A stretch of DNA of 64,000 bases, from assembly GCA_015179125.1 (NCBI GenBank), contig WHVA01000006.1:496001-560000 (forward strand). Reading direction: 5' to 3'. The notes under the pieces are model-generated. The model saw only the letters and a program-made list of their open reading frames with translations. It made no database searches and was not told the origin of the DNA. Each line of letters opens with the position of its first letter. Within the stretch, counting starts at the first letter, position 1. This DNA is from Gautieria morchelliformis. Lineage: Eukaryota; Basidiomycota; Agaricomycetes; Gomphales; Gomphaceae. The translations under genes and the position numbers were made by a program. Positions 7,742 through 60,962 of the stretch are shown one piece after another.

Positions 7742-8306
7742 GGAGGATGTTTATAAATGTCATATATATGTATATATAGCTTAGCTCATCTATATTTCAT
7801 AAATATATCAAAATTGTTGCCAGCACCTGTAAGGCATGCTTAATCCTAGCCCCAAAGTTCTTTCTCACAGTCTGCTGCTCCCCCAGGAAAGGGTGTATAC
7901 CCCATTGTCTAAACATCAATAGTTACATATCTTTGTACTATACATGCATATTATTTTAAACATACCTTCTAATCAGATCTCTCAACCATATATAATAATA
8001 TAGTACAGGTATTGTCCATACTTGCTTCTTTATTCTGTGATTGTACATCTAACATGTTTCATGTATACTTTTAATATATAGTCATCCACATCCTCTCTGA
8101 AATTGCTCTGTTATATCAATACACACCATGCTTTAGCACATACAACCATATTTTTAAAATATCAGAACATTCAAAAAAATTTAGGATGTCCACAATATAC
8201 AAGTTGCTCAAAATGATGGATTATGAATGTGGTTAGGGTTGATATTTTAAAAGATATCTAATATATCCTAGAAGAATATACATTGTTGTCAATGTGAACA
8301 TCCTCC
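7742..8306. mobile_element. Harbinger-like MITE, copy M1
   Basis: This 565-bp AT-rich element has terminal inverted repeats GGAGGATGTT and AACATCCTCC. An inverted, nearly full-length copy lies at 36493-37064. It encodes nothing. Its right end coincides with the stop codon of the chromodomain-transposase gene, and I see no matching 3-bp flanks here. At least one flank has therefore been rearranged. Confidence 0.85.
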
Positions 8307-10918
8307 TAGTAGTGTCTATCCTTCTTCTTTTGACGTCTAATGTAGTCCTGTATACACTGCGTTGTATCAAAATCTTCCTCCCTTACCCAAGTGTGATCTT
8401 CATAGTTTTTCCATTGAACTAAGTATTCTTTTCTCTTTCCTTTTGTCCTATGATCTACTATTTTGTTCACTTCATATGTATCTTCAATATCTTGGTCAGA
8501 TTCATTTGTATCTGTACCTGCTAATAATCGTGCTTGATACTTAGACATTTTCTTTTAGACATTTTCTTTGCATCCTCTGTAATATCCTTTAGAGTTGAGA
8601 TTCTCAGTGACTCAAAGTCGAGGGTATCAGTTGATGGATAGTCAAAATGGTTCTCCATCCATGACATATGATTAGGTTGTGCTTGGAGCTCTCCTAATTT
8701 AACAAACCGTTTGATATTAAGCAGCAAGCATGCTAATCTAAACTGCAAAGAGAATATCTTAGGATTTGATGTTTGGACAGGCTTCTGATTATTTAACTTC
8801 TTAAATGTCATTCCTAACTCTCCAAATAAGCTTTCTATCTTTGATCTGAAACTACCAAATCTTTCATTGTAGCGCTTCTCCATATCTGATAGTTCAGCAT
8901 TCTTCTGCTTCCGAATTGGATGGCAGAAATTCATTTCTTTCAATCTACCTTGCTTTACTACTTGTTTCACAAATAATGTATAGCCTCCATCAAGAGCCAT
9001 ATGATCTGCCTTATCCATCTTATCTCTTAAGTTCATTTCTGTGAACATTGCTCCATCAGAGTGGCTACATGGCAATGAATCAGAAACAAACAAAGCCATC
9101 TCATGAAAATCCATAATTACTTGAGTTCTCATTCCAGATTTTCTGTGTTTATGTGACCATTGTACTTTAGATGATCTTCCTATTTCTGTTCCTCTTGTGT
9201 CATGACCATCAAGGAATAAAGTTATTGTGTTGAATAGTTCTTCCTTATTATTATCCTTTGCAGATAATATTCTAATCCTTATGTTGGAAAACATATGAGC
9301 CAACAAATCAATGATTTTGTCATTTAAGTCATTATTAAGGTCCTTTTAATGTCCAAAAAAACTCTGATGGATCGCATGAAAAGTACTCCCAGGTATAAAT
9401 CTGTTCATATCATCAAATGTACAACCTTCAAGCATATTGTCATGACGCGTTTATTTCTCATATTCAGGTGCTCTGTCCTACCATTTGTCACTCCAACTCC
9501 GTGTTCGTTCCAATCGCCATTGTCATGTTCGGCAACCAATTCTCGCTGTTCGCAACAATGACCATGGTTATGCCGTCAACAAGCGATCGATGTCCTTGGA
9601 CTAACTTAGCAGTCATTGTTGGGCCTATCACCTCCTCTGCTCGACCCTCTTCCGATGGTGTTCTGACAATCGGATTGTCATGACCTATGTATTTCCTGCA
9701 CCTTGTTACCCCCATTCCCTCGTTCGCTACTCCTCCTCCGTGTTCGCTCGGCTTCGCCCCTCCCTTCCACGCCTCCTCTATGTTCTCTCCGTTCACCCTT
9801 CGCCGCATTTTGCCGAACCGCTATTCGCTGCTCGCGCATTTCGCCAACAAGGCACGCCATCAAACATGATCGATACCATTTACCCAGTGTAATGATTCAT
9901 CACTAACCCCATCATCTTCTTAAATCCAACCCCTTTGGGTTTTCGTATGGCCAAAGTATGTTCGTGGAGCGTTCCTTCCGTAGGTCGTGTGGGATCGACC
10001 CAGTGGACGAAGAGTCGGTGCAGGGTGACATGTATGCGGGTCCCAAGACATGGTTTCGTACATAAGTACCTTCGCCACCTTTACTCTCCATCGTTTCATG
10101 TTCACACCCCTATCCAACCCTGACTCATGACGGCCTCTTTCCTATTCGCTGATACCGTACAAGCATTAGATATAAGTAGTTTACATTCGCATGTATATTC
10201 CCCAGTTCAATTATCATACGTCGTCCATCTTGTGCAAACTTGACCTCGCTGTGACCATAGTCTCAAGCCTCCCCTTGAAGATTTCTATCTTCAACCAGCC
10301 AAGGACTTAGGCATCACTGGTGAGTTCTCATACTTCATTTTCGTTACCTTAGCCTTCGAACCATTTTCTGTGCTGTTGGCGAAGGGCTCCGACGGAGCAC
10401 CTTCACCAGCGAAGGGATTGTCAAGACTTAGACAGCCCTTCCGTGAGACCTTGCCCGTTACATTGTCAAGAGTCACAGGCTATTTCGCTACGACTGTAGA
10501 TAGGGTGAGCCCCGTTTTAGCAAACCCTCTTATCTTGTGAACATTCATTGGTTCACCTATTCACCGAACGGCATACTTATTCGCACAAGTTAATCGGGCA
10601 TTCGCTGTGTTCACTAATACACGATATTAATGCTTGAAAACCAATCTTGACACAGATGATAGAGTATTAATAGTCCCTTCTCTACATTTTGATATGGACC
10701 TGGATGGTGCTTGAATGGAAACAACACTACTAGGAGGAAAAACACTGGTATTGGTCCAAGCTACTCTAATACTCTTTTCTTGACGAGATCTATTTCAGAA
10801 ACAGGTTTTAGTCCTGATCTATGAAATTTAGTTGGCTTCAACAAAGGCCATTTTTCATCAAGAAACCCCCAATGTCATTCATCAACATTTGATATTCTTC
10901 AAGGAGTGACTCGTTCAT
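8306..10918 (-). CDS. DDE transposase (Harbinger/DDE_Tnp_4-like) with C-terminal chromodomain, disrupted
   Basis: The main open stretch (8521-9306, 261 residues) shows a DDE_4-type nuclease core: FLDGHD with D33, ALDGGYTLF with D106, and FRSKIESLFG with E158. The frame beside it (8306-8548) encodes a chromodomain: an EVNKIVDHR strand, then YLVQWKNYEDHTWVREEDF with the usual aromatic positions, then a basic tail. A tandem 14-bp duplication near 8540-8567 (unit AAGAAAATGTCTAA on the minus strand) separates the two frames. Counting one unit puts nuclease and chromodomain in a single polypeptide. Upstream there is an in-frame stop near 9348, and a reverse LTR-A copy splits the N-terminal part, which resumes at 10653-10918. 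I expect a cut-and-paste transposase targeted by chromatin marks. The N-terminal limit is uncertain. Confidence 0.75.
9438..10652 (-). repeat. LTR-A, reverse, inside the transposase gene
   Basis: The 1215-bp LTR starts TGTCATGACGCG and ends CCAATCTTGACA. It is flanked by CATAT on the left and CAGAT on the right, a 5-bp target duplication with one later change. It is a solo LTR of the long form. Confidence 0.88.
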
Positions 10919-13389: not shown

Positions 13390-13459
13390 GACCAAATAGC
13401 TTAGTTGGTAAAGCACCCTATATACTAACAGGGTCCCAGGTTCGAACCCTGGTCTGGTT
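13390..13459 (+). tRNA. tRNA-like gene, anticodon uncertain
   Basis: It folds as a cloverleaf. The acceptor is GACCAAA with TCTGGTT (one mismatch, one G-T). The D arm is GCTT/AAGC with an AGTTGGTA loop. The T arm is CCAGG-TTCGAAC-CCTGG, giving a perfect B box. The anticodon arm can pair as ACCCT/AGGGT with a 10-nt loop or as CCCTA/CAGGG with an 8-nt loop, so the anticodon cannot be fixed. No CCA is encoded, and no T-run terminator follows within about 40 bp. It may be a tRNA, a tRNA pseudogene, or the Pol III head of a SINE. Confidence 0.6.
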
Positions 13460-13468
13460 AATCAAGAT

Positions 13469-14086: not shown

Positions 14087-14688
14087 GGTTCATCTATATG
14101 AATTGACAGCTTTGTGAAATCAGTTTTTATGTAGTATGTCATAGGTTTATATCATCAAACCTGATAGAAATGCATTTATCTACATGCCCATAGTTGCCTA
14201 GTGTATAATATTATGTCATTCTGTGATAATAGGCACTAAAAAAATATTATCTACAGCGCTAAGATACTCTTTAATATCAAACAAGGCCATGCAAAAAGGT
14301 ATGTTAATGAACTATAGATAAGAAAGAAACCCTTACACATATCAGCAGACACCAACACATATACAGTAACTGAACATGACAGTGTCTTACTGTTTGATAT
14401 TATTGCCGTTGGGTCACGTATTCCTCCACCTCATGAAAAGAGGACTACCACAATTTATAAGAAATGTCAGTCTGAAACTTTAGGTCCTTCATGCTGACTG
14501 ATCTCATAATTAGCTACTTACAAGCTGAAATATATAGCAAAAGGCATACAAAAAAGAGTCAAGTCTATTCTGCGACTGTAGATAATAATCATATGATTCT
14601 ATAACTAATAGAGGGTAGGAGCTGAATCCTGTCAAAACAACAAATGAATACAAACTGAGTTTAATATAATATACAAGCTGGATTGACA
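14087..14688. other. AT-rich intergenic DNA
   Basis: No gene is supported. The TTTAATATAATATACAAG stretch just before 14689 could act as a core promoter for the small gene that follows. Confidence 0.4.
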
Positions 14689-14901
14689 ATGACATATATC
14701 CCTACAGCAGGAGATAAAGTGATATTTATACATCCAGTGACTGGGGAGGAGATGAAGGGTGTTGTTACAGTAGTAGATATTCCAGGGAGGACAGCAACTA
14801 TTCTTTATGATAAAAAGGGGCGGAGAGCGGGACCTTATCAGTTAATGCATCGAATACCAATAAACCAAAATTTTGAAGCACTAAAACAAATAATTGACTA
14901 G
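14689..14901 (+). CDS. Small beta-rich (SH3/KOW-like?) 70-residue protein
   Basis: The frame starts at ATG 14689, preceded at 14661-14680 by a TATA-rich tract. The protein opens MTYIPTAGDKVIFI, then GVVTVVDIPGRTATILYD, then GPYQLMHRIP. The GDKV opening, the glycine-valine turn and the repeated beta strands resemble small SH3-barrel proteins (KOW or Tudor-like). I cannot assign a named family. A role in nucleic-acid or histone-tail binding would suit the chromodomain transposase next door, but that is inference. Confidence 0.5.
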   Translation: MTYIPTAGDKVIFIHPVTGEEMKGVVTVVDIPGRTATILYDKKGRRAGPYQLMHRIPINQNFEALKQIID

Positions 14902-14999: not shown

Positions 15000-15207
15000 A
15001 TACACCTTGCATGTTGCATCGTCAAGTGCCACAGGCTATTTCGCTACGACTGTAGATAGGGCAAGCTCCGCTCGGGCAGCCCTCTTATCCTGTGAACATT
15101 TATTGGTTCACCTATTCACCGAACGGCATACTTATTCGCACAAGTCATTCGGGCATTCGCTGTGTTCACTAATACACAATATTAACGCCTAAAAACCAAT
15201 CTTGACA
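15000..15207 (-). repeat. LTR-A fragment, reverse
   Basis: It matches the last ~205 bp of reverse LTR-A (TCGTCAAGTGCC to CCAATCTTGACA). The other end is missing, so it marks a deletion or recombination junction at the right edge of the AT-rich island. Confidence 0.85.
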
Positions 15208-19699: not shown

Positions 19700-21391
19700 A
19701 TGCCATCCAGCACGGACCCCCCGCCAAACGCGGCGTTGCAACCCCGAACTCGAGCCAGCAACCAGCAAGGCGGCAGCAAGTTCAGAGCAGAGTTGTTAGC
19801 AGATCCGTATGCAGCCGTCCGCACCAAAGAAGGAGCACGCACCTATCTAGACAGGAACGGCTACTTCGCAAGAGACGAACCCATTACCACGGAACTACTC
19901 AGCTACACCCTCCTGTCGCTAGCCCATAGCGCAACGGTCAAAACTCTGCAAGAGGGCGCCAGAGCAATAGCCATTTTAATGTTGGAAGAAGCAGCGAAGA
20001 GTATGGGGGAGACAGTCGCAATGTACGTGGGTGAGAAGATGAAGTCGGTCTTGGACAAGATGGAGGAGGTCTCGGAGACGGCGATGAATCTGACAGAAGC
20101 CGCCCAAGTAACGGCGCAAGAGGCAGCCAGACAGATGAGCGAAGCACACGGGAGCCGAAGAGAGATGAGCAGAGAAGAGGAACACGGGGGGAGCAGAGTG
20201 ACGTACACGGCTGCACTACGAGGTAATGTACCACTTTCACACCCCACCAATCTTGCCAAAGCACGGGCTAGAGAACGCCAAATCCTGATAGACAGCGATC
20301 CACGGGCAGAGAAAAATGCCTTCGATGAACTCAACGAGCAGGAGCTCATCGCCAAAGCAAACGAAGCTGCGAACGAGATCGAAACGCCGGAGAACGTGGG
20401 AGAGATGTGCTTCATAGGGGTCAAGAAGTTAGCGAATGGAGGGATTGTCTTCGATCTCACCACAAACATGGCGGCAAGATGGATACAGGCCAACAAGGTG
20501 ACATTCCTGGAAAAATTCAGCGCGACGGCCACAATCAAAGACAGGGCGTTGTCAGTCATCATAGAATACGTACCCGTCAGCCACTCACCGGAAGCCTTCG
20601 CCGAGATGAGAAAGATAGAACATGACTCCAGGCTGCCAAGCGGCACCCTCATAGTGACGTGATGGATAAAGCCGGCCCACAGAAGAACAGCTGGACAAAA
20701 AACGGCGCACCTGATCGCAAAATTCGCCACAACTGAAGCGGCGAACCAAAGCATCCGAGAGGGAACGATAATAGCTGGGAAACGTACCTGGGCGAGAAGG
20801 ATGAAGAGGGAGCCCCGTCGGTGCCTCAAATGCCAGAAGTACAACACCAGGCACATGGCAGCTGACTGCCCTGACCCCAACAGGTGCGGGACGTGTGGAA
20901 AGGAGCACAGGACTGCGGACTGCGAGGAAACTGACCCGGACAAATTCCATTGCGCGAGCTGCGACACGCACGGCCATGCATCATGGGACTGCACCTGCCC
21001 CAGCTTCAGAGCCGCATGCCAGACAGTAGAGAGAAACGACCCTGAGCACACGTACAAGTATTTCCCTGATGAGAATCCGTGGACGTGGGAACAGCAGGGA
21101 ACTGCGGACACAGGCGTAGAAACGGGGAACCCTACCAATATGACAGGCCTGTGCAGCGTACCGGGATGGCATGCGCCGCCAGATCCTGTTAACACCCGAG
21201 GCCTGAGCACCAACACAGGGAGGCACAGCCGCAACGAAGGAAGAGGGGCTAACCCGCCGAGGGGGCACAGAGACCAGGGCTGGACTGGACAAGGAGACAG
21301 ACAGCGAAGGCTAGACGAGTTCGGAATAGGAGGGAGCCAGATAGACGACCAACAACGAGAGGAAGACCACCAAAGCCTGCGCCACGGATGA
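19700..21391 (+). CDS. LINE ORF1: nucleic-acid-binding protein with three zinc knuckles
   Basis: The first ATG of the frame is at 19700 (MPSSTDPPP). The N-terminal half is charged and helical, with a likely coiled coil around KSVLDKMEEVSETAMN. The C-terminal part carries three CCHC-type knuckles in a row: CLKCQKYNTRHMAADC, CGTCGKEHRTADC and CASCDTHGHASWDC. This is the chaperone/RNA-binding protein expected of Tad and related LINEs. One in-frame TGA at 20660-20662 splits the frame, just before a WIKPAHRR stretch. The CG context suggests a CGA to TGA change. The stop codon overlaps the ORF2 start as ATGA. The long open frame on the opposite strand is a shadow of this gene. Confidence 0.88.
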
Positions 21392-24300
21392 ATAACAAGG
21401 CACAAGAGAGAAAAACCTTGCGGATAAGACAACAGAACACGAATAAATCCCTCACCACAGTCACAGACTTACTGACAAAATGCCCACCCGACAGGTATGA
21501 CATAATAGCCATACAGGAACCATACGTGGACTTCCTAGGGAACGCTCGAGCATCGCCGCATTGGTACTCCGTCTACCCAGGATCCCATTACAAGGACAAG
21601 GGCAAGCGCACCAGATCTACCATGCTCGTCAACAAGAAAATCGCAACAAGTGCATGGACGGCAATCGAAGTGGGCTCATCAGACATTACAGCGATAAAAA
21701 TGCACACAGAAACAGGTGTAGTCCTAATTTTCAACATATACTGTGATTGCACTAACTCAGACAGCGTACGTGACATACGACGATACATGCAAGATCGAGC
21801 AGAGCAGAATCAAACAGAAGAGGAGAACATCGAAGGAGTCATATGGCTCGGCGACTTCAACCGCCACCACCCGCTGTGGGACGACAAGCGAAACGCACAC
21901 CTCTTTACCAGAAGCAATCTGGACGCAGCACAACTGCTACTAGAGGCAATTGCAGAACAAGACTTGCAAATGGCGCTACCTAGGGCCATACCCACGTTGC
22001 GAGCCCTGTCCACAGGAAACTACACGAGAACCGATAACGTCTTCATTTCCACTATACTATTAGAGAGGCTGATCAGTTGTAAAACAGTGCCGGAGGAGAT
22101 GCCAGTGAAGAGCGACCACCTTCCAATAGACACGGTAATCGACACGTCCTTCGCAACGGTCAGCTACACCCTGAGGCCCAACTACAGGGAGGTAGACTGG
22201 AAGGTTTTCAATGAAAAGCTCGGAGAACGCCTGCAAGACAGCATCCCCGAGCCGACACCCACAGACAAACTGGCTTTTCGACATCACCTCAGGGAGATAA
22301 ACACAGCAATACTGGAAACGGCGGAGGAACTTGCGCCCAAGACTAAGCCATCCCCTTATATGAAAAGATGGTGGTCCAGGGAACTAACTAAGCTTAGATC
22401 CAATTCCAGGAGTCTGGGAAGAAAAGCCTACGTGAGGCGGGGGGAACCGACAGACAAAGCCCACGAAGACTACAAAATCACCAGGAACCAGTACGCCGAT
22501 GCCATAGAAAGAAACAAAAAGCTGCACTGGGACGCCTTCCTCAAAGAGATAGACAAAAAAACCGTATGGACAGTGCACAGGTACGCGTCGGCAGACGCGA
22601 CTGACGGCGGGCAGGCGAGGGTCCCGACACTCACAGCCAGGCGCGACGACGGCACCAAATGGGTGGCCAGCACAAATGAACAAAAAGCAGAAATGCTGTT
22701 CACTGCTTTCTTTCCAACGACCAGAGCAGAGGCGGAACAAGTACCAGCAGATTTCGAATACCCCACCCCCGCATTCGATTTTCAGCCCGTTACCGACGAC
22801 CAAATACGTCGAGCCGTGGACAGGCTGAACCCCTTCAAGGCACCGGGGCCCAATGGTATCCCCAATATCGTCATTAAGCAGTGTATTGACATGCTACTAC
22901 CGTTTCTAGGCCCTTTGTACAGAGCTACCTTCAGTCTCGACACATACCCGTCGGAATGGAGGGACTCAATCACCAAAGTACTAAGAAAGCCGGGGAAGGC
23001 CGATTACGCAGTCCCCGGGGCATATAGGCCCATAGCGCTCCTCGACACGATAGGGAAGGTCCTGTCGGCTTGCGTCACAGAGGACCTGGTCAAGATGGCT
23101 GAAAGATACCAGTTACTCCCGGACAACCACTACGGGTGCCGCCCTGGAAGAACAACCACTGATGCCCTGCACTACACCATAGGGGCTGCAAAGCGCGCAT
23201 GGAGGAAGGGGAAAGTACTGGGGGTGCTTTTCCTGGATATAAAGGGAGCTTTCCCGAGCATTGTCCTCGACCGATTAGTGCACAACATGAGACGGAGGGG
23301 TGTTCCCGAAGAATACACTAGGTGGATACAAAGAAGGGTGGAGGGAAGGAGCACGGTCATCAGCTTTGACGACCATAGCACACAGGCCATGCTGATAGAG
23401 CGAGGGATGGACCAAGGATGCCCGGTATCCGCAGTAGCTTACCAATTCTACAATGCTGACCTTCTCGAAGTAGTGCGGCGCGGTGAGGGCGAAGGTTGCG
23501 TGGGTTTCGTAGACGACACCACTATCATGGCAGAAGGCGTCGATCTCGAGGAGGCCTTCGGCAAACTGTCAGACATCATGACAAGGTCCGGGGGCACCAA
23601 TGAGTGGGCCAGCGTGCACCAATGCAACTTTTCCCTGGACAAATTCGGGCTGATGGGCCTGACTAGGCGCAGAGGAAAGGACCCCACCAATGCCAAGAAA
23701 ACCAGACCGATCGTGAGGCCAAGCATAACGATCGGGACTCACTGCATAAAGCCGGCAAGCTCGCACAAATTCCTGGGAGTCGTCGTGGATCAGGAACTAC
23801 GTTTTAAAGAGCAGGTCAACTACGCGCTCAAGAAAGGTGACAAATACATCACCCAGTACCCAGTACAGGAGACTATCGAGGCCAACGAAAGGAGTCTCAG
23901 CTAAGTACATGAGACGATACTACTTAACAGTCGCAATTCCGAAGATGATGTACGCTGCTGACGTTTTCCTCGTGCCAGGTTCAGAGCACACAAAAGGGAC
24001 CAGGGGATACATAAACAAGCTGGCTAGAATACAGCGGCAAGCGGCGATCATGATAACGGGAGCCATGAGGTCAACGGCGAACGACGTACTAGACGCACAC
24101 GCGAACCTTCTGCCCTTCCCACTACTGGTCTCCAAGCTAGTTCACAGAGCCGCACTAAGACTCGCCGGCCTCCCCGACAGCCACCCTCTGGCCTCCGATG
24201 TACACACCGCGGCCAAGCGATACATAAAGAGACATAGAGCGCCCATCCACGAAATCCTGCACGCGTTCGAGCTCCAGCCAGAGAGGATGGAAAAGATCAG

Positions 24301-25131
24301 AACGGTAATCTACGGGCCCAAATGGACCCCAGCCTTCAAGACCCGAGTCCCGCCGGATAAAGACCAGGCTGCAGAAGAAAACAACAGAGAGGCAGCGGAT
24401 GTCAAGGTCTACACGGACGGCTCGTGCATGGAAGGAGGTGTGGGAGCGGCAGCGGTGTTATACAGAGGGGATAGGGAAGTGAAGGTGGTTAGGCTGTATA
24501 TGGGCACCGAGCGTGAGCACACTGTATTCGAAGCTGAGCTGACAGCCGCGGCAATAGGTGCAAAGCTCCTCAACACTGAGAGGGGAAAGAAGTATGTCAT
24601 CGTCACCGACAGTCAAGCGGCGATACAGACGACGAGGAAGGAAAGGGTGATCTCGGGACAATACCTGGTAGAGGCTTTGCACAGGCAAATCGAAGGAGTG
24701 GTAAGCCTGCAGCCAGGCGTCAACGTGCTCATGAGATGGGTCCCCGGGCATGCAGGAATCGCTGGGAACGAGAGGGCCGACGCAGAAGCCAAAAAAGTGG
24801 CAAAGGGGTCATCGAGTGAAGAGAGGCTGATACCAATCGAGTGCAGAGGAATATTTCCCAGAAGCAAAGCAGCCGAGCTCCAGGGACATCACCAGGACAC
24901 TAAACGGACAGCCAGAGCAGCCTTTGCAAAGTCACCTAGAGCTCCGATGGCGCACAAGACCGATCCATCCATGCCGTCCAATGCGTATGACAAGCTAAGC
25001 AGAGATTTGCCTCGGAAACAGGCCAGCTTACTAGTGCAGCTCAGGACAGGACATATAGGCCTCAACAAACACCTACATAGGATCGGAAAGGCGAACTCAC
25101 CGTTATGCCCGACTGTCAAGATTGGTTTTTA
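21388..25131 (+). CDS. LINE ORF2: endonuclease, reverse transcriptase, RNase H
   Basis: It begins at ATG 21388, overlapping the ORF1 stop. Domains in order: APE-type endonuclease (IQEPY, WLGDFNRHHPLWDD, SDHLPID), reverse transcriptase (AYRPIALLDTIGKV, FLDIKGAF, GMDQGCPVS, catalytic FVDD near 23508-23519), a thumb region, then RNase H (YTDGSC, FEAEL, VTDSQAA, WVPGHAGIAGNERADAEA). The reading frame changes between about 23840 and 23905, after KKGDKYIT. The RNase H part is open again to the solo LTR-A at 25114, and the last codons of the open frame belong to that LTR. The C-terminal zinc-binding tail resumes at 26395. This copy is damaged but young-looking. Confidence 0.92.
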
Positions 25132-26495: not shown

Positions 26496-26975
26496 TGTCA
26501 GGGGACACCCTGTTTTCCATTTCCAGTTCCGACACCACACCCAGTTCCGACTCCATTTCCGACTCCGCTTCCGGTTCCGATTCCATCTCCGCCTCCGCTT
26601 TCGGGAACAATTCCGCTTCTGGGAGAACTTCCACCAGTTCCGTTCGCCTTGCCGGTTCCACTCCAATTTCCGACTTCCGCCCCGGAACAGTGTTGGAAAT
26701 CAAGCGACTCGCATAATAGGTGGCATCAAGGGTCGATCAAGGGTCAGGGGGATGCAGGGTTGATGGCGGGTGCCAAGCGTTGTCCCTGGCTGCGCAGCGT
26801 AGTATAATACGGGCTCGCTGACATTGGGGGTCCTTAGACTTTTCTCTTTGGATTTCCCCTTGTCAGGTGAGAACCCCCTCTCTTGTATGCTCTGTTCATT
26901 TATACATACTTTGGATTTCCCCTTGTCAGTTGTGTGGTAGTGTGATCTCCACGACTAGCCAGGGTTGCCCTTACA
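26496..26975 (+). repeat. gypsy-D 5' LTR
   Basis: The 480-bp LTR runs TGTCAGGGGACACC to GCCCTTACA. It contains a run of TTCCG-based short repeats (about 26515-26690) and a TATAATACGG stretch near 26803. Confidence 0.95.
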
Positions 26976-27162
26976 GCAGAAAAGTCTCTCCCCTAGAGGA
27001 CCGGCGGTCGTACTGCGCGTTGCATTCGCCATAGGTGCGTTCGGAATCGGAGACAGCGACTCGGAGATCGCAACCTCTTCCGCACATACAGCGTACGACA
27101 GCCCCTCTTCTTACGTTGAGCTCCCAACCCCGGAAATCCCGTCCCATATTTCTCCTTCCAAC

Positions 27163-28338
27163 ATGGATCCGGACGATCGTCTTCGGAATATGGAGGAGGA
27201 ATTGACGCGGAACCGGATGAAGACCGACGCGATTGAAACAGCCTTACAAGCGATTTTGGCTAAGTTAGATATTCCACAAGGTGGTGGAAATGAAATGCTG
27301 GATGATCCGGATTTCGGAAAAGCGGAACTAGCGGAAAAGAGGATGTCCGCGAAGTTAGCAAAGGTCAAACCCGCAACTCCGGCGGACTTTGACGGAGATC
27401 GGGAGAAGGGACGCGCATTCTTCAACACATGCAGCATCTACTTCGCAATTGTCGGAGACCTCTTTCCGAACGACCAGGCTCGGATTCACTGGACGTTGTC
27501 CTTTTTCAAATCGGACCGCGCAGCCCGTTTTGCAAACAAGGTGATCCAACATGAAGCAAAGGGCAAGGGGAACTACTTCCGGGACTGGGACGCGTTCGAG
27601 AAAACATTTTCCGACCAGTTCTGCCCGAAAAACGAGCAGCTCACAGCCCTTACAAAGCTCGAGGGGACGAGCTGGTACCAGGCCAAAGATCCGGTCGATG
27701 ACTACATCGATCGCTTCCAGGAGCTCATCGACCTTGCGGAATATGACGACGACAAGACGATTGTCATCAAATTCCGACGAGGACTTGATCCGACGCTCCA
27801 GAACCAAGTTGCGCTGCTTGGGGATGGAGCTCCGGATTTTGATGACCCGGAAGGGTGGTACCAAGCTGCGCAGAAGGTTTCTCGGAACAGGGAGGCAAAT
27901 GAGGCCTTTGTGGAGACGAGCCGGAACATGACACGCAGTTCCACTCGTCCTACTCCACCTGTGCCAAAACCCGGAAGCGCATTCATTCCCACACGGAAAT
28001 TATTTCCGATGCTTGCTCCGCCTGCTCCTATTAGGAACCATAGCCCTCCTCCCTCGAAGAGTGGCCCTGCCCCAATGGATGTTGACCGCATGCGCGGAAA
28101 AGGCCACGGAACTATCACCTGCTTCCGCTGCCGACAACCAGGCCACTACGCTCGCGAGTGCCCCCAAGCCTTTGATATCCGGCTTATGACCACAGAGGAG
28201 AAACTCGAGATCCTTCCAGAGTTCCTCGCGCTTGCAGACATAAACGGAGTGCCCACTGCGGAAGAGCTTTCCGAAAATGCGGAACATGGTCTACCGGAAG
28301 CGGAAGATGCGTCGGATTTTGTGACACGCAGCGGGTGA
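27163..28338 (+). CDS. gypsy-D Gag
   Basis: The open frame extends from the LTR edge (26965). ATG 27163 ([14 protein letters not shown]) is the first clear start with a coiled-coil-like beginning. The core resembles fungal retrotransposon Gag ([48 protein letters not shown]). The nucleocapsid CCHC knuckle is [14 protein letters not shown]. The end overlaps pol, which lies in the -1 frame, so programmed -1 frameshifting is possible. It packages element RNA in the cytoplasm. Confidence 0.9.
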
Positions 28339-31300
28339 GATGTGTGCCCCTGCTGCCTGTACATAACCGGTTTGCCTGTCTTGAAGTAGAGAATGAAAAG
28401 CCCCCACTCCCCTCACTTCGTACAGACCCACCGGATAAAGTCACACAAAAACCAAATCTGACACCCCATCCATCCCGCATCCGCCCTTGGGAGAGACGCC
28501 TTCCGAAGCGCTATGTTGTTGCTGCCACCCCTGGCCCCAAGTCACTAGTCATTAAGCTGGAGATCCAGACGACAGATACGGCGGAAGTCAAATCCGGACC
28601 CGCCCTTGTCGATTGCGGGGCCACTGGTCAGTTTATGGACCGGGACTATGTGGAACGGAACCGACTGACCACGCGGAAGTTGCAACGTGCAATCCCGGTG
28701 TTCAATGTGGATGGAAGCCCCAATGAGGCAGGGTCCATCACGGAGATAGTAGACACAATTCTCCGCTACGATGGACACTCAGAACGCACTTCCTTTGCAG
28801 TCACCAGCCTGGGGAAGCAGGACATCATCCTTGGGTTTACCTGGCTTCAGGAGCACAACCCGGAGATCAATTGGCAGACTCGGAAGGTACTGATGAGTCG
28901 ATGTCCAGCCAAGTGTCACATGTGCAGGTCGGAACTGCGGAAGGAGCGCCAGGAGCAGCGGAAGACCGAACGGCTCATACAGACATGTCGTTCTGGCCCC
29001 CATCCACTGCTTGCAGAAGAAGACTCGGAAGCGGAATTTGAACCGGATCCCACTTCCGATTCCGATTCCGATTCCGACGTCATCCGACTCGGCCCGGAAG
29101 ACATTCTGGCGGAAGGGGAGCGCTTGCTGTACGTAAACCTTCCGCCGGAAGCGGAACACATCCGCGCCACCGGAAATATTTCGCAACGCCTTGCTGAAGC
29201 CTCCAAGAGGCATGATAGAGTAGAGGCGGAAATTCCGGAGTACCTGCGAGAGTTCGAGGACGTCTTTTCCAAGGAGTCGTTTGATACCCTGCCTCCACGG
29301 AAGCTGTGGGACCACGCCATCGAGTTGGAGCCTGGGTCAAAGCCCACCAACTGCAAGGTCTACCCGCTGTCACCCAAGGAGCAGGTAGAGCTCGATGCGT
29401 TCCTTGCGGAAAACCTCCGTACAGGGAGGATCCGCCCCTCCAAGTCACCCATGGCATCTCCGGTGTTCTTCATCAAGAAGAAGGATGGCTCGCTCAGACT
29501 TGTGCAGGACTACCGGGCCTTGAATGCGATCACGATCAAGAACCGGTACCCCCATTCCACTCATTTCCGAACTGATCACACAACTCCGCGGGGCGAGGTA
29601 CTTCACTAAGCTGGATGTCCGCTGGGGCTTCAACAATGTCCGGATCCGGGAGGGAGACGAGTGGAAGGCCGCATTCCGCACCAATCGAGGACTCTTTGAG
29701 CCACAGGTCATGTTCTTTGGCCTCACCAACAGTCCCGCCACATTCCAGACGATGATGAATGACATTTTCCGTGACATGATAGCAGAAGGGGTTGTCTGCG
29801 TCTACCTCGATGACATCCTCATTTTCACGAAAACAATGTCCGAACATCGGGAAGTCGTGCGGAGAGTGCTGGAACGGCTCCGGGAGTACAACCTGTGTCT
29901 CAAGCCGGAAAAGTGCGAATTTGAGCGGACGCGGATAGAGTATCTTGGGGTGATTGTGTCGGAAGGAAAGGTGGAAATGGACCCAGTCAAAGTTTCCGGT
30001 GTATCGGATTGGCCCGTGCCGCGAAACAAGAAGGAGGTCCAGTCCTTCATTGGGTTTGTCAATTTCTACCGGCGGTTCATCAAGGACTTCTCCTGCCACG
30101 CCCGTGCCCTCTTCGACCTCACCAAGAAGGAGGTTGGATGGCGGTGGGGAGAGCCGGAACAGACTTCCTTTGACAAACTCAAGGAGCTGATCACTTCCGC
30201 CCCGGTCCTGATCTTTCCCGACGACTCTCGCCCTTATCGAGTCGAGGCGGATTCTTCCGACGCAGCTACCGGAGCGGTCTTGTCACAGCAGTCATCGGAA
30301 GATGGTGGGGGGTGGCATCCGATTGCCTTCTTCTCTAAGAGCCTTAGTCCGGTCGAGCGGAACTATGAGATCCATGACAAGGAGATGCTGGCAATCATCC
30401 GAGCGCTGGAGGAGTGGCGACACTTCCTCGAGGGTGCTCTATGCCCTTTTGAGATCTGGACAGACCACAAGAACCTCGAGTATTTCCGCACGGCTAAGAA
30501 GCTGAACCGACGACAAGCACGGTGGTCCCTACACCTGTCCCGGTTTGACTTCATGCTCCACCACCGCCCCGGCCACACCATGGGCAAGCCCGATGCCCTA
30601 TCCCGCCGCGCGGATCACGGAAGCGGAAGTGGAGACAACGCGGATATGACACTGCTCCGCCCAAGTCTCTTTGCAATCCGTGCCCTAGAAGGAGTAACTG
30701 CAGTTGGGGCGGAAGCGGAAATGCTCCGGGATATCCGGAGGCAGTACCGGAATGGAGAGAAGGAGGAGTCGGTGGTGAAGGCAGTGGAGGAACTCCGGAA
30801 GGGGCACTCACGGTCTGTACGGGCAGCGGAATGGTCGGAACGTGATGGACTGCTCCACTTCAGAGGCAAGGTCTATGTTCCGGGTGGGGCGGACCTCCGC
30901 CGTCGCATCGTGTCCCAGCACCATGACACACGGGTCGCTGGGCATGCTGGCAGGTGGAAGACGCTGGAGTTAGTGGCTCGGAATTACTGGTGGCCTCAGA
31001 TGTCCCGCTACATCGGACAGTACGTGAAGACGTGTGACCTTTGTCTCCGAACCAAAGCGCAACGACGTCCGCCCGTCGGAGAACTTGTTCCGCTCCCGAT
31101 TCCCGAATCCCGCTGGGACACCATCAGTGTCGACTTCATCGTTGAACTCCCAGAGTCTCATGGCTACGACGCGATCATGAACGTCGTGGATTCGGTGAGC
31201 AAGGTGTCCCACTTCATTCCGACGCACACGACGATCACAGCCCTCGGAGCGGCCCGCCTGTTCCTTGCACATGTCTGGAAGTTGCATGGGCTCCCGAAGC

Positions 31301-32250
31301 AAGTCGTTTCCGACCGAGGTCCGCAGTTTGTCGCGGAACTGACTCGGGAGCTCTACCGCCTGCTCGGCATAAAGCTGGCTACCACCACAGCGTACCATCC
31401 GCAGGGTGACGGACAGACGGAACGGGTCAATCAGGAGTTGGAGCAATATCTCCGCCTCTTTGTCAATGAGAGGCAGGATGACTGGGATGAGTTACTTCCG
31501 CTGGCGGAATTCCAATACAACAACCATGTCCATTCCGCCACGCAACAGACTCCCTTCAAGCTTGACTCCGGACGACACCCGCGGATGGGCTTCGAACCAC
31601 GCCAGGCTGACTCCCGACTCGAGACGGTCAATGAGTTCCGAGACCGCATGGACTCCACCCTTTCGGAAGCCAAGTCGGCCCTTGCGAAGGCCAAGGATGA
31701 CATGGCAAGGTACTACAACCGACGCCGGGTTCCTGCCCCAGAGTACCAAGTTGGAGACAAGGTGTACCTAGATGCAAGTGACATCCGCACCACACGCCCT
31801 TCGCAGAAGCTTGCCCACCGCTACCTTGGGCCCTTCACAGTGACGCGGAGGGTTGGACGGAATGCATACCGCCTCCGACTTCCGATGTCCATGTCCCGCC
31901 TCCACCCCGTCTTCAACGTGGTGAAGTTACTCCCTATGCTTGAGGACCCAATTCCACGTCGGAAGGCTCATCCGCCACCTCCGCCAGAAATTGTAGATGG
32001 GGAAGAGCACTACGTGGTAGAACGGATCCTGGACAGCCGGTTTGTGCGAGGACGACTCCAATTCCTCGTGAAATGGGAAGGGTATGGGTACGAGGAGAAT
32101 TCGTGGGTCCCGGAGCAAGATGTTTCCGCTCCTGACAAACTCCGGGAGTTCTACAGGACACATCCAGGTGCCCCTCGCCGAATCCGCTCGCTGGCATTTC
32201 AATCCCTTGTGTCCCGTGCTTCGAGGACGCAGCACGCTAGAGGGGGGTGA
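28335..32250 (+). CDS. gypsy-D Pol: protease, RT, RNase H, integrase, chromodomain
   Basis: Order of parts: aspartic protease ([17 protein letters not shown]), RT ([19 protein letters not shown], then VYLDDILIF), RNase H ([18 protein letters not shown]), integrase with an HHCC zinc domain (TCDLCLRTK) and DDE core ([17 protein letters not shown]), and a C-terminal chromodomain ([32 protein letters not shown]). The chromodomain makes it a chromovirus, a class known to steer integration toward marked chromatin. There is about one break. It is otherwise full length for the family. Confidence 0.92.
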
Positions 32251-36492: not shown

Positions 36493-37064
36493 GGAGGATG
36501 TTCACATTGACAACAATGTATATTCTTCTAGGATATATTAGATATCTTTTAAAATATCAACCCTAACCAAATTCATAATCCATCATTTTGAGCAACTTGT
36601 ATATTGTGGACATCCTAAATTTTTTTGAATGTTCTGATATTTTAAAAATATGGTTGTATGTGCTAAAGCATGGTGTGTATTGATATAACAGAGCAATTTC
36701 AGAGAGGATGTGGATGACTATATATTAAAAGTATACATGAAACATGTTAGATGTACACTCACAGAATATAGAAGCAAGTATGGACAATACCTGTACTATA
36801 TTATTATATATGGTTGAGAGATCTGATTAGAAGGTATGTTTAAAATAATATGCATGTATAGTACAAAGATATGTAACTATTGATGTTTAGACAATGGGGT
36901 ATACACCCTTTCCTGGGGGAGCAGCAGACTGTGAGAAAGAACTTTGGGGCTAGGATTAAGCATGCCTTACAGGTGCTGGCAACTGCCTCAATTTTCATAT
37001 ATTTTATGAAATATAGATGAGCTAAGCTATATATACATATATATGACATTTATAAACATCCTCC
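36493..37064. mobile_element. Harbinger-like MITE, copy M2, TSD ATA
   Basis: The 572-bp element has ends GGAGGATGTT and AACATCCTCC and ATA on both sides (36490-36492 and 37065-37067). It is the inverted counterpart of M1 (7742-8306), with high similarity along the whole length. It is non-coding. The three-base duplication supports PIF/Harbinger-type mobilisation. Confidence 0.9.
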
Positions 37065-37756
37065 ATACCATAGCTACCTCAACTCACGCAGGAGCTGTTG
37101 AAGCTCTCTCTTATTTCAGAATACTTAGGTCTACAGCATCACCAAGATGTGCCGATCATTCCAGCTCCCATGCCAACGACCCGTTTACTGATGATCTTCC
37201 ACCCAGCCACATTAACGATGTTACCAATATCAAAAGTTATGACAGAAACTCCTTGAGTAGCAGCAGCGAACATACAGCCATGTCATCTTGGCACTCAGCA
37301 CCACCTCCACCACCACCCCCAGGTCCTTGAGGCAGCGGTCCCCAGGCGATCCTCCACCTCCAAATCCTGCCAACCCAGTTCCACCCACCCGAACACCAGA
37401 CCTCACGCAGGCTATTGCCATGCTTGTCAGCAACCTCCAACACCTGGCTCTAGCACTGCATCCCAAGACCAAAGTTTGTGAACCCGACCAATTCGACGGC
37501 TTCGACCCAAAGAAGCTTCAGCTCAATTTTTGTGACCATCCTGACGCCTTTTCCGATGATGAGAAAGGTCAACTATGCCCTTTCCTACCTCCGCGGCATG
37601 GCTCTCGACTATTTTCAACTGGCCCTCATGGACCTCTACACTGTCATTGACTGGGCAGATGATTTTCCCAATTTTGTTTCTGAACTCCGCAACAACTTCG
37701 GACCTTTCGATATGGAAGCCAATGTGGAAAATGAACTCGAAATGCTTCATATGGAC
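37065..37756 (+). mobile_element. Ty3/gypsy gag fragment
   Basis: A proline-rich leader is followed by a fungal Gag core (TKVCEPDQFDGFDPKKLQ, then VNYALSYLRGMALDYFQLAL, then FVSELRNNFGPFDMEANVE). It ends abruptly where the NLR gene begins on the other strand. It is broken and partial. It may be the gag of gypsy-A, but no overlap proves this. Confidence 0.85.
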
Positions 37757-37759
37757 CCT

Positions 37760-40700
37760 CTTCCTTGCCCAAGGACTTGAACCTGCAGCTCTTCAGCATC
37801 CTTCCACTGGTCCTGATTCCAATAGGTTGAAGCAAGGGTTCCCATAGCAGTTAGGGTGTCAGGATGCTCCTCACCAAGGACCCTCTTCCTTGCCTCTAGG
37901 ACTTGAACCTCCAGCTCTTCAGCATCCTTCCACTGGCCCAACCTCTGATAGGTTAAGGCAAGGTTGCCTATGGCAGTCAGGGTGTCAGGATGCTCCTCAC
38001 CTAGGACCCTCTTCCTTGCCTCCAGGACTTGAACCTCCAGCTCTTCAGCATCCTTCCACTGGCCCTGATTCCAATAGGTTGCAGCAAGGTTGCCCATGGC
38101 CATTAGGGTGCCAGGATGCTCCTCACCAAGGACCCTCTTCCTTGCCCCAAGGACTTGAACCTCCAGCTCTTCAGCATCTTTCCACCGGCCCTGATTCCAA
38201 TAGGTTGCAGCAAGGCTGCCCATAGCCATCAGGGTGCCAGGATGCTCCTCACCAAGGACCCTCTTCCTTGACCCCAGGACTCGAACCTCCAGCTCTTCAG
38301 CATCCTTCCACTGGCCCAACTTCTGATAGGTTAAGGCAAGGTGGCCCATAAGGGTTAGGGTGTCAGGATGCTCCTCACCAAAGAGCCTCGTCTTTGCCTC
38401 TAGAACTTGAACCTCCAGCTCTTCAGCATCCTTCCACTGGCCCTGATTCCAATAGGTTGCAGCAAGGTTGCCCATGGCCATTAGGGTGCCAGGATGCTCC
38501 TCACCAAGGACCCTCTTCCTTGCCCCAAGGACTTGAACCTCCAGCTCTTCAGCATCTTTCCACCGGCCCTGATTCCAATAGGTTGCAGCAAGGCTGCCCA
38601 TAGCCATCAGGGTGCCAGGATGCTCCTCACCAAGGACCCTCTTCCTTGACCCCAGGACTCGAACCTCCAGCTCTTCAGCATCCTTCCACTGGCCCAACTT
38701 CTGATAGGTTAAGGCAAGGTGGCCCATAAGGGTTAGGGTGTCAGGATGCTCCTCACCAAAGAGCCTCGTCTTTGCCTCTAGAACTTGAACCTCCAGCTCT
38801 TCAGCATCCTTCCACTGGCCCTGATTCCAATAGGTTGCAGCAAGGTTGCCCATGGCCATTAGGGTGCCAGGATGCTCCTCACCAAGGACCCTCTTCCTTG
38901 CCCCCAGCACTTGAATCTCCAGCTCTTTGGCATCCTTCCACTGGCCCTGATTCTGATAGGTTGAGGCAAGGTTGCCCATAGCGGTCAGGGTGTCAGGATG
39001 CTCCTCACCAAGGACCCTCTTCCTTGCCTCCAGGACTTGAACCTCCAGCTCTTTAGCATCCTTCCACTGGCCCAAACTCTGATAGGTTAAGGCAAGGTGG
39101 CCCATGGCCATCAGGGTGTCAGGATGCTCCTCACCAAGGACCCTCTTCCTTGCCTCCAGGACTTGAACCTCCAGCTCTTCAGCATCCTTCCACTGGCCCT
39201 GATTCCGATATGTTGCAGCAAGGTTGCCCATAGCGGCCAGGGTGTCAGGATGCTCCTCACCTAGGATCCTCTGCCTTGCCTCCAGGACTTGAACCTCCAG
39301 CCCTTCAGCATCCTTCCACTGGCTCAAATTCTGATAGGTTAAGGCAAGGTGGCCCATGGCTATCAAGGTGTCAGGATGCTCCTCACCAAGGACCCTCTTC
39401 CTTTCCCCCAGCACTTGAACCTCCAGCCCTTCAGCATCCTTCCCCTGGCCCTGATTCCGATAGGTTGCAGCAAGGTTGCCTATAGTGGCCAGGGTGTCAG
39501 GATGCTCCTCACCAAGGAGCCTCTTCCTTGCTGCCAGGACTTGAACCTCCAGCTCTTCAGCATCCTTCCACTGGCCCAAATTCTGGTAGGTTAAGGCAAG
39601 GTGGCCCATGGCCATCAGGGTGTCAGGATGCTCCTCACTAAGGACCCTCTTCCTTGCTTCCAGGACTTGAACCTCCAGCTCTGCAGCATCCTTCCAATGG
39701 CCCTGATTCCGATAGGTTGCAGCAAGGTTGCCCATAGCAGTCAGAGTGTCAGGATGCTCCTCTCCCAGGACCCTCTTCCTTGCCTCTAGAACTTGAACCT
39801 CCAGCTCTTCAGCATCCTTCCACCATCCTGCTTCAAAGAATACTTTTGTAAATTTATCTGCAATGTATGGCTTTGCACCTTTTGTATATAGCTTAATATG
39901 AGATAGAAGAGATCTTCTAAATGCATAGTCCTCTTTCCTCTCTCCATTTGGGATAGAAAGTGCTAGTATCTGCATTATGCACCCTTGGTTATTCTCCTGC
40001 TCTGCCAGCTCCAGTCTTTCTCTAGCCCAAGCATGCACTAGTGGATGAAGGAAAAATGTGCTATCTCCCTCATCAAGGCTAATCAGTGAGTAAGAAGTCA
40101 ATTCACCTCCTGGAATTGAAAGTCACTCCAGCTACCATCTGTGTTTTGGAAGTTGTGCAGAAACTGTTTTGTACTGTCAAATTGTCCATCTGAATCCATG
40201 AGAGCTGCATTTTGAAATATGCCCTTGGAAATACCCCTATCATGCAGAAATGCACATAGGTGTAGGAAGCTTGCTGCTATGAGACTTAGCCTTTTAAAGC
40301 TAATTTCCCAAGTTGCATATACTGCCCAAGGATAATCATCCACCATTTGTACTGAGTGCTTGCTCATCAGTTGAGCCCGGTCCTTCTGAAAAATCTTCAG
40401 ATATTCATTTAAGCTGCATCCCTTTGAGATATAAGTGCCTGCTTGTACTAGGGCCAGGGGAAGATAGCCAAGTTCTTTGGCAATCAAAGATACCAAGCTA
40501 AGGTTCTTTCCAGAATCTATGGCTGTAACAAACATGAGCAGCAAATCTATAGCTTTCTCTGCTTTCATGCTTGATACATGACAGTTGAAGCTAGGTGCAT
40601 GCACACGACACTCTACATTGCGACTTGTCACAATGATGTTTCCATGCTTGCATGCTGGGAAATACTTTCGAAGGTTTATGTCTCGATCATCAGCATTGTC

Positions 40701-42620
40701 CAGGAACAGCAACCACCCTTGGTGTTGTCTGGAAAGCCAGAGAAGAGCATCTTTCGCAGTCTCACCAATACCCTCTTCCCAAGCAATATCTTCAAGGCCA
40801 GACTCCATAGTGGTCACACTACTTGCATCCACATAATAGACCCTCCAAAAGCTAAATATAAAACAGATTAGCCAAAACATAACAGACCCAAGTAAACTAC
40901 GCCACCGTTGATAAAACCTTTCAATGAATGTCAATGCAATCTGCGTTTTTCCCACCCCACCAAGCCCATACAAGAGAAAGATACACTGTTCCTCCTTAAC
41001 AGTAGATGTCAGCTTTGGGAAGAAGTATCCCTCAAGTTGCAAAAGGATGTCAACTCTTCCAGTAAATCTGCTTGTTGGTGGAGGACAGGCCCTATGGCGA
41101 GCTCCACGTTTACCTGATAGCTGGCCAACAGTGCCTGCACCTATGGTGTCTACAATAAAACATATGTCATCAGCTGTGAGGCATTGCAAATTGTACGCAC
41201 TGAGGTGTGTGGCAGCGATCACTTCCCGGCGCTCTCTGAGAGCAATAACAGCTGCAGTTACCACCTTGTCCACTTTTCTTTGCCGAAGATGCTGCAATGT
41301 GTGTGTTGTCACCTCAGGTAACCTTTCCCACTGTGCCAATGTTACACTTTGCATCCCTTGCTCCACATTGAACCGAAAATAAACGTTCGCTACAGATCCA
41401 AAGCGCCGCTCGGTTTCCTCCGCTGTTGCCTCACATTCTGTCGTGATATTCTTCAATACCTCAGCGACACTTAGTGGTATGACATTGTTAAACAGGCTAG
41501 GTGCTGGTAGGCTGGCAGTGGTGACATGTCCAGTGCCGATACTGACAACGCAAGCAATATGTCGGTGCGGAAATATGTGTTCTGCTTCATTGAGGATTTG
41601 CTTGATAGGATTGTTGCAACCCAGGCCGGCATCGACGAAGGGTTCACGCATAGGTGGAATGCCGATGAAAATCCGTTTGAAAAAAGTAGGAGCGGCAGAC
41701 GTGGCACGAGCGACCTCCCATATAGCGCAGTCGAATGATTCGTACTTGCCTACGCTGTACGTACGAAAAAGGCGGGGTGCACTCATGTTATTTGCGGGCA
41801 TCGCGCAGATGAAACTGGGCTCTGGTCAGCTATATACCAAGTCAAGAAAAAGCGGCAACATGAACATACGTTTTGCACACTTCGCTGCTTGGTCTTGGAT
41901 CAAGCATGGGTGTGTCAGGGTAACCAGTCGATTCCTGGATGATCGCCTTGATAGCCTTCTCCAAATTACTTGCCTTGAACATTCCGTCCTTCCAAAATGG
42001 TTTCTTCTCCGAGAACACTTGTGAGGCGAATGTGCCATAGGCCTCGATCGCTTTATCTACGGGCAGGCGGAGGCGGCCCAGCATGAGCGCTATGAGCCTG
42101 CATGAAACGTATTAGGGAGCGACGGCGATCGAGAAGAAAGCAACTTACCCGCCTGTACTCGTGCCGCAGATTAAGTCGAAATATTCGCAAGGAAGAGGGG
42201 TCGTGGGTCGCCCTTCTTCGTGCTGGATTCTTTCATGATTTCTTGTAGGATGATAAGTTCGGACAAGCCACGAATGCCGCCCCCGTCTGCTGAGGGAGTC
42301 AGAAGGTGTCACATAACAAGCCTGAAGACATTACCGAGTGAAAGCAACCTAAGCCCGGCGCCCTGGTGCCTATCGGTTTGTGTGGCGGGGGTAGATTCGA
42401 TGCCTGTTATCCTTGCCGCAAGACCTGAAGTAGGCAGCGATATGGTCTGCATCCATGAAAATTCGTCAGACAGTCCCCTTGATCGCATCCTAGAATAAAC
42501 TTTGCTTACCGTTGAGTGTACCGAAGACGGCTTTACGATTGGCGGCGTTTCGTCATGCCTGGATAAAGGGACAACTTTGGCGATCTGCGGGTTATGGCCC
42601 TTGGAGGAGTTAAAGGTCAT
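37760..42620 (-). CDS. NLR-type receptor: patatin - NB-ARC - 16 TPR repeats, 3' end lost
   Basis: The N-terminal domain is a patatin-like phospholipase. DGGGIRGLSEL is the oxyanion loop, FDLICGTSTGG holds the GTSTG serine, and FVDAGLGCNNP holds the Asp of the dyad (DAG rather than the common DGG/DGA). Then NB-ARC: P-loop LYGLGGVGKTQIAL, Walker B WLLFLDNADD, GYLPLALVQAG. Then 16 TPRs of 42 residues (KDAEELEVQVLEARKR, GEEHPDTL). Introns I can place on the minus strand: 42334-42287, 42148-42098 and 41869-41815, all GT-AG. One in-frame shift lies between NB-ARC and the TPRs near 40098, which is either a tiny unspliced feature or a true frameshift. The start is uncertain: ATG 42620 is followed by a possible further intron. 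The array stops inside a repeat at the gag junction, so the C-terminus is missing. Such proteins are thought to act in fungal allorecognition and regulated cell death. That role is family knowledge. Confidence 0.85.
37764..39830 (-). repeat. 126-bp coding repeat array (16 units) with a 378-bp higher-order duplication
   Basis: Sixteen 42-codon units lie in tandem. Units 9-11 and 12-14 (counting from the N-terminus) encode identical residues. The DNA blocks starting at about 38033, 38411 and 38789 are nearly identical at exact 378-bp spacing. This points to recent unequal exchange or gene conversion. Confidence 0.95.
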
Positions 42621-57589: not shown

Positions 57590-58011
57590 TGTTGAAAAAC
57601 CGGCCATACTTGACCAATCACTGACCCTTTGTCCACTTAGCGCGCTGTCCCTTTCCGCAGCCCCTTTTGTATTTTCACCCCATTGTTTTACTCCATTGTT
57701 CTATTCCTCTTTTAGAGTACAAAAGGTCTCTCTAGCTAGTATAAGTAGAGCCCTGATTGTACGACGACCTCTCAGCTCCTGACGTCATCTTAGGTATTTA
57801 GCCCTTTCCACTAATAGCATCAGCTTCTCCTGACGTCGTCTTAGCCTTAGAGTCTTTATCTCAGACCTCTGCGCCTACAGGTTATGGGCCCCGCACTCTA
57901 AATCGCCCTAACTGATACCACGCACTCTAAGCTATCTCGACTACGCACGAACTCTTGCTTCTTGTCTGATCCCCATCCATGACCGACCTTGCCATTTAGC
58001 GACCTTCCATA

Positions 58012-60467: not shown

Positions 60468-60962
60468 TGTTGGGTGCATTTATGCTCCTGCACCAAAATC
60501 AAGCATAATATATTCGATTTATTGTATGGTGTTTCAATTTCTTCTCACATTGTTCTTGTACCATGCATCCATTTCTCTGATTATTTTCGAAATTTTCCAG
60601 TCACTCCCTATCTCTCCATTTCATTCTGTTATTTCTATTTTCAAGGCGGCTGCACCCAGCGGAGTTTGAAATGACTTCGACGCGAGCTCTTGAGCGCTAA
60701 AGAGCCGGGTAGTAGTACATGCACAGTGAGACAAAATTCCCCCTCTCTCAGTGACAACTAAATTCACTGAGAGAGGCAAGTAAATTAGTCTAGTATTCTT
60801 TCGATTTATTGACCTAGAAATCCTCTGTAGTGAATTAATTTCTAGGTAGTGTATAATATATTTAAAGTGACAACTAAATTCACTGAGAGAGTGAATTAAT
60901 TTCTAGTCTATTCTTTTGAGCAACAAGTCCAAACCTACTGCCTATAATTCCTGTCTACTACA
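60468..60962 (+). repeat. Solo LTR-C inside copia-E
   Basis: The 495-bp LTR runs TGTTGGGTGCATTTATGC to CTGTCTACTACA. Flanks are GTGTA (60463-60467) and GTGTC (60963-60967), a 5-bp duplication with one later difference. It holds three copies of a TCACTGAGAGAG / GAATTAATTTCTAG motif set (60745-60905). It sits in the linker between integrase and RT. Confidence 0.88.

Follow-up and report, generated by a model that had tools for sequence, protein, structure and literature searches.

A transposase-chromodomain fusion in a composite-like DNA transposon with long terminal direct repeats from Gautieria morchelliformis

The genome of Gautieria morchelliformis encodes a transposase with a DDE_Tnp_4 core that ends in a chromodomain, and the reading frames of intact copies establish that this fusion is real and forms one protein in this genome. 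The gene is part of an element with a composite plan, in which an interior is enclosed by long terminal direct repeats (LTDRs); sequence comparison establishes this plan for the copies read of three subfamilies (A, B, and C). The element is probably a decayed, composite-like and Harbinger-like DNA transposon with a chromodomain-tethered transposase and LTDR pairs that each descend from one template. We infer the capacity for histone reading, the targeting of insertions, and the one-template origin of the LTDR pairs.

The copy in the window, i.e., the entire 64,000-nucleotide stretch of DNA analyzed, is damaged (Table 1). The first-pass annotation had described a DDE transposase and an adjacent chromodomain frame on the minus strand. 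Pfam recognizes both domains, and the acidic residues then numbered D33, D106, and E158 show the same spacings (73 and 52) as D46, D119, and E171 of the 274-aa frame. A tandem duplication of a 14-bp unit, seen by eye, puts the two domains out of frame with each other. The start codon at 10918, beyond the inserted LTR, opens the sequence MNESLLEEYQ with which the intact copies start. About half of the span originally assigned to the gene (8306-10918) is foreign LTR (9449-10656), and the element is larger than this span. Five stretches related to this solo LTR occur elsewhere in the window, and a 5-bp duplication (CATAT/CAGAT) flanks it by eye. The element extends from its 3' LTDR, which adjoins gypsy pol DNA at 7741, to about position 15003.

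Table 1. Features of the window copy, its interior, and a solo repeat of the same family.
Feature	Position	Strand	Remarks
3' LTDR, 565 bp	7742-8306	-	ends GGAGGATG / CATCCTCC; 96.5% identity to the 5' LTDR of C448 over 568 bp
Transposase-chromodomain gene	8306-10918	-	broken by a frame shift and an inserted LTR; intact relatives elsewhere in the genome
Chromodomain	8333-8476	-	residues 27-74 of frame 8306-8554; Pfam Chromo 1.1e-10, above the curated cut-off
Catalytic frame, DDE_Tnp_4	8521-9345	-	274 aa; Pfam 3.1e-13, above the curated cut-off
Acidic residues of the 274-aa frame	D46 9208-9210; D119 8989-8991; E171 8833-8835	-	frame 8521-9345
Tandem 14-bp unit (2 copies)	8542-8569	-	site of the frame shift; by eye
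Foreign solo LTR, 1208 bp	9449-10656		interrupts the gene in its N-terminal part; sequence comparison within the window
Interior ORF; starts as a coiled coil, contains repeats of about 75 aa	11324-12328	+	C448 version: no Pfam match above the cut-off
Interior ORF, 206 aa	13469-14089	-	relative of the 217-aa MKEMM protein found in other copies; C345 version: no Pfam match
Small interior ORF (MTYIPTAGDKV...)	14665-14901	+	C448 version: no Pfam match
LTR fragment truncating the element	15004-15207		5' LTDR missing in the window
Solo LTDR, same family, 572 bp	36493-37064	+	ATA at both sides

A tRNA-like sequence is located inside the element at 13390-13460 (ARAGORN, with an unclear anticodon), and a similar stretch is visible by eye in the translations of subfamily B copies; it may serve as a promoter or be a captured tRNA. 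Other parts of the window, also judged by eye, comprise a LINE-like ORF pair (20663-25129), a chromodomain-bearing gypsy chromovirus with ORFs for gag and pol (26959-32247), two long minus-strand ORFs of NLR-type appearance with an NB-ARC-like motif and many TPR-like repeats (37750-41825), and copia-like ORFs (58000-62687). The gypsy, LINE, and NLR-like genes have a basidiomycete appearance.

A search of the genome that contains the window (122 Mb, 1113 contigs) with the 261-aa core as query found 78 matched stretches, some of them whole and others partial, and 30 loci were cut out for the reading of frames. Single-frame homologues with both domains, for which the first-pass annotation had recommended a search, are present at 7 of these 30 loci (L003, L004, L006, L009, L011, L016, and L018), each with one open frame of 464 codons that encodes a protein of 459 aa from the first Met. 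Pfam, run on L003 among the seven, identifies DDE_Tnp_4 (3.1e-13; 50.1 bits, cut-off 24.8) and Chromo (8.9e-10); the other six align with L003 over the full length, including both domains. In subfamily B, represented by five of eight more distant loci, three copies have a frame that spans the catalytic part and the chromodomain, and in one more it extends as far as the chromodomain start; in subfamily C, represented by the other three loci, it reaches the chromodomain start in one copy and is interrupted ahead of it in the other two. Identity to A is 46-50% for the long rows of B and C. As judged from these frames, the two subfamilies retain the fusion at about 50% identity, and a fusion common to three subfamilies is neither a neighboring gene nor an adjoining gypsy fragment.

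Over the whole gene, the seven intact copies have a pN/pS of 0.45, compared with 0.33 over residues 396-459. The value for residues 151-330 is 0.96, with no sign of constraint on the catalytic part. The predicted structure of the fusion protein (mean pLDDT 36) is too poor for a fold search. No relatives were found in viral_contigs or genome_contigs, which cover viruses and prokaryotes and are silent on other fungi.

The first-pass annotation had regarded the gene as a cut-and-paste Harbinger transposase. The DDE_Tnp_4 core is indeed Harbinger-like, but that description overlooks the accessory genes and the composite plan, in which, across the three subfamilies, interiors of 5.6-7.4 kb lie between LTDRs of about 550-680 bp. 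Past the chromodomain, the homology among A copies breaks off abruptly at CATCCTCC or CATCCCCC; in the upstream direction it continues for several kb. The 3' terminal sequence recurs still further upstream in direct orientation in five A copies (C448, C284, C345, C701, and C771), with interiors of 5.6-6.9 kb, and the 3' LTDR of this subfamily begins within the stop codon of the transposase. The A repeats start with GGAGG and finish with CCTCC, with TG and CA located six bases inside the ends; each LTDR has short inverted ends, which are exact in A and imperfect in B and C.

The repeats of the B element (C249) are 94.5% identical over 529 bp, and one segment of this copy is inverted. Those of the C element (C175) are 99.85% identical over 680 bp, with TTA outside both ends; the interior also begins with TTAT, so that the repeat proper is about 675 bp. 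A further copy (C202, locus L015) has a tandem arrangement, in which two interiors share one common LTDR. Two palindromes were encountered in these elements. One, of 543 bp and 94% identical to its own reverse complement, lies just interior to the C element's 5' LTDR (L083, oriented positions 432-974) and is a possible replication or recombination site. The other, of about 497 bp, lies at one end of the inverted segment of the B element (L080, L041, and L081; oriented positions 8514-10246); this segment splits an ORF (MSHKAHLKKC...) that by eye has an apparent relative in C.

Besides the transposase, subfamilies A and B have a protein of about 207 aa in common, with 53 matched stretches in the genome. 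It has no Pfam match, and its predicted structure (mean pLDDT 41) is too poor for a fold search; by eye, the sequence LIPDFTV...LIVEIKRS makes it look like a PD-(D/E)XK nuclease. The A interior also encodes the 217-aa protein and a long repeat protein. Comparison of four proteins with PHROGs gave no convincing accessory function.

Target duplications of 3 bp accompany many of the repeats. LTDR-end candidates in the genome numbered 399 and 420 in first looks, and 40 of each were scored. Among 21 LTDRs read with short flanks, 13 had both ends and eight had lost one by cut or damage. An identical 3-bp duplication is present at 9 of the 13, a 4-bp duplication at none, and mispaired flanks agree in 11 of 156 cases. 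The 13 include two 5' LTDRs of full elements (L066 and L072), where no duplication is expected, and one duplicated flank is common to three of the nine duplicated LTDRs. Nine full A elements were tried and eight scored, with C245 left out as its 3' end was not found. Four have exact duplications (C260, TAA; C284, AAG; C345, ATA; C242, TTA) and four do not (C448, GAG/AAG; C133, ATA/TAT; C701, TAA/ATC; C771, TAG/TAA). The B element has AAG/AAT flanks and no exact duplication; the C element has TTA. The duplicated triplets overall are TTA and TAA but also AAG, ATA, TAG, TAT, CAT, and TTG.

The two LTDRs of an element are mostly closest to each other. The comparison covered 17 sequences from nine elements, without solo LTDRs, a minority of the several hundred candidates. 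In six of eight A elements (C133, 98.4%; C242, 96.7%; C260, 99.5%; C284, 99.3%; C345, 98.9%; C448, 99.0%), the two LTDRs are more alike than in any other pairing compared, with a margin of only 0.2 points in C133 and C242. The two exceptions, C701 and C771 (94.2% each), combine an LTDR of a long type with one of a short type. Neither has an exact duplication, so both may be recombinants. Long-type LTDRs occupy both ends of C345 and C242. Four of the eight pairs are sisters in the LTDR tree. LTDRs do not group by side, with mean identities of 95.5% for 5'-5', 94.8% for 3'-3', and 95.2% for 5'-3' comparisons across elements. A composite that moves purely by cut-and-paste should let its 5' and 3' repeats diverge as two lineages, which is not seen.

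The chromodomains of subfamily A are 36-40% identical to those of B and 55% identical to that of C. Over the whole domain, two A rows share 28-32% identity with two gypsy chromodomains of the same genome. The first 34 residues reach up to 61% identity with one gypsy group, so that an older, more distant gypsy source is possible. The aromatic residues Y, W, and Y occupy what we take, by assignment from HP1, to be the cage positions in all five rows compared, which represent three subfamilies; in the subfamily B copy L048, C replaces the first cage Y. The best PDB matches of the domain are cpSRP43 and HP1/CBX, followed by CDY and MPP8. HP1/CBX chains match at 1e-6 to 1e-10 and, like other histone-reader chains, over more of the domain than cpSRP43; two residues of an HP1 loop are absent, as in cpSRP43, which is not known to be a histone reader. 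The domain has both an HP1-class sequence match and a predicted aromatic cage.

Other transposable elements adjoin some of the copies. Pieces of five TE proteins derived from the window occur in 8 of 23 3' flanks (from 30 loci, with one positive being the window copy's own flank) but in only 1 of 17 random pieces, which came from contigs that had not themselves been chosen at random. After removal of one tandem unit and one duplicate, the ratio is 7/21 versus 1/17 (one-sided p 0.045). DNA matches to the window's other sequence are present in 10 of 23 flanks versus 2 of 17 random pieces. Heterochromatin targeting would explain this weak enrichment, and retention in gene-poor DNA would do so equally well.

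The element, about 7-9 kb long (LTDR - interior - LTDR), encodes a transposase that ends in a chromodomain, together with accessory proteins of the interior. In the mechanism that we consider probable, the transposase would cut at the GGAGGATG ends and join them to the target with a 3-bp stagger. The chromodomain would recognize a methylated histone tail, with H3K9me as the likeliest mark, and keep the complex at heterochromatin, where copies would collect in other transposons. Both LTDRs of a copy would descend from one template and be alike for that reason, either via recombination between repeats or via a circle or concatemer that consists of (LTDR-interior) units. A bolder version is possible but less likely: the elements may have reached the retroviral plan without reverse transcription, by circle or concatemer replication with the aid of their own nuclease and, in one lineage, of a virus-type helicase, followed by chromodomain-guided insertion of LTDR-interior-LTDR units into heterochromatin, with both repeats of a new copy derived from a single template.

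Alternatively, the chromodomain could be a protein-protein module, as in cpSRP43, with LTDRs kept alike by gene conversion in an element that moves by ordinary cut-and-paste, which we regard as rather unlikely. The rank of cpSRP43 chains among the best PDB matches would suit such a module, but the cage aromatics retained across three subfamilies, the broader coverage by histone-reader chains (HP1/CBX included), and the greater abundance of TE pieces in the flanks argue for a histone reader. Ordinary cut-and-paste agrees with the solo LTDRs, whose own ends and 3-bp duplications imply that each could move alone, and no replication intermediate was seen.

Descent from an integrated DNA virus or virus-like replicon, with the transposase and LTDRs as its integration system and a D5-type helicase as the remnant of its replication genes, is improbable. 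It is suggested by a 469-aa ORF of subfamily C with a D5_N domain (Pfam, 3.5e-9), whose closest PDB chains are those of the ASFV primase-helicase C962R (2.9e-10). In C175, C451, and C179, the helicase is matched on the strand of the transposase match and 2.5-4.4 kb upstream of it; one more match is located in C180. The helicase is, however, seen only with subfamily C, its location between LTDRs is demonstrated only in C175 (loci L082, L045, L083, and L091), and Pfam recognized no capsid, packaging, or polymerase genes among the 16 ORFs submitted.

It is very improbable that the elements are LTR retroelements that lost their reverse transcriptase and captured a transposase gene. Long direct terminal repeats, solo repeats, and element-matched pairs would all be expected of such a descendant, but the transposase and the LTDRs have stayed together in three subfamilies at about 50% identity, and membership among the LTR retrotransposons is ruled out by the GGAGG..CCTCC ends (rather than TG..CA), the 3-bp duplications, and the lack of reverse transcriptase, protease, and gag matches among the 16 ORFs (Pfam).

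A chance neighborhood of a Harbinger-type transposase and a piece of gypsy chromovirus, which the out-of-frame window copy beside gypsy DNA and the local identity to one gypsy group might suggest, is refuted: the separate neighboring gene and the gypsy fragment, both named as alternatives in the first-pass annotation, are excluded by the single-frame copies at 7 of 30 loci, the occurrence of the fusion in three subfamilies, the LTDR that begins in the stop codon, and the absence of a gypsy integrase tail ahead of the chromodomain (in comparison with two gypsy elements of the same genome, L098 and L099).

The Gautieria element combines features of several known systems. A full-text search of the literature, with Repbase and most subscription papers outside its reach, found no Harbinger-like transposase with a chromodomain, and KolobokP of animals as the only DNA transposon with LTDRs. 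Its authors describe KolobokP as different from all other DNA transposons (Kojima and Bao 2022, PMC9587614). Both elements enclose an interior between two LTDRs, each of which has short inverted ends of its own, and both have solo LTDRs, tandem units that share an LTDR, and a DDD/E transposase with an accessory nuclease, which in Gautieria is PD-(D/E)XK-like by eye. KolobokP differs in that it belongs to the Kolobok superfamily and encodes a His-Me finger nuclease, of which Pfam found no match among the 16 Gautieria ORFs; the word chromodomain has no occurrence in the accessible text. The Gautieria element, by contrast, has a DDE_Tnp_4 core, a fungal host, 3-bp duplications, and a chromodomain on its transposase. 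The Kolobok signature C/DxxH between the second D and E (PMC9587614, accessible text) is by eye absent between D237 and E289 of L003 and likewise from the B and C rows, and its absence and the length of the duplications rule out membership in Kolobok.

The DDE_Tnp_4 core and the 3-bp target duplications, including TTA and TAA, are shared with PIF/Harbinger elements. The latter typically duplicate TWA and have a second gene with a Myb/SANT domain. The Gautieria element differs by its chromodomain, its LTDRs, the short inverted ends of 8 bp, and the further duplications AAG, ATA, TAG, TAT, CAT, and TTG beside TTA and TAA; a Myb/SANT partner was not recognized among the 16 ORFs of A, B, and C (Pfam, up to E 1).

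Chromoviruses (Ty3/gypsy), for which the available text of PMC12477314 reports heterochromatin targeting, resemble the Gautieria element in the C-terminal chromodomain on a DDE recombinase and in the long terminal direct repeats. Here, however, the recombinase is DDE_Tnp_4 and not a retroviral-type integrase, the ends are GGAGG..CCTCC, the duplications have 3 bp, and reverse transcriptase, protease, or gag was not recognized. Maverick/Polinton elements have a retroviral-type integrase, long inverted repeats, and polymerase and capsid genes. They, too, are DNA elements whose integrase bears a chromodomain (PMC10799480, in the part available), whereas the Gautieria element has DDE_Tnp_4, direct repeats, and only a helicase (subfamily C).

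A chromodomain on a Harbinger-like transposase, unrelated to the integrases of chromoviruses and Mavericks, suggests that the same aid to targeting may have been adopted by another class of enzymes. As a second case of LTDRs, in another superfamily and with mostly element-matched pairs, the element makes the question of how such repeats stay alike testable, and a transposase of 459 aa with a possible histone reader would be a handy model for the chromatin steering of DNA transposons.
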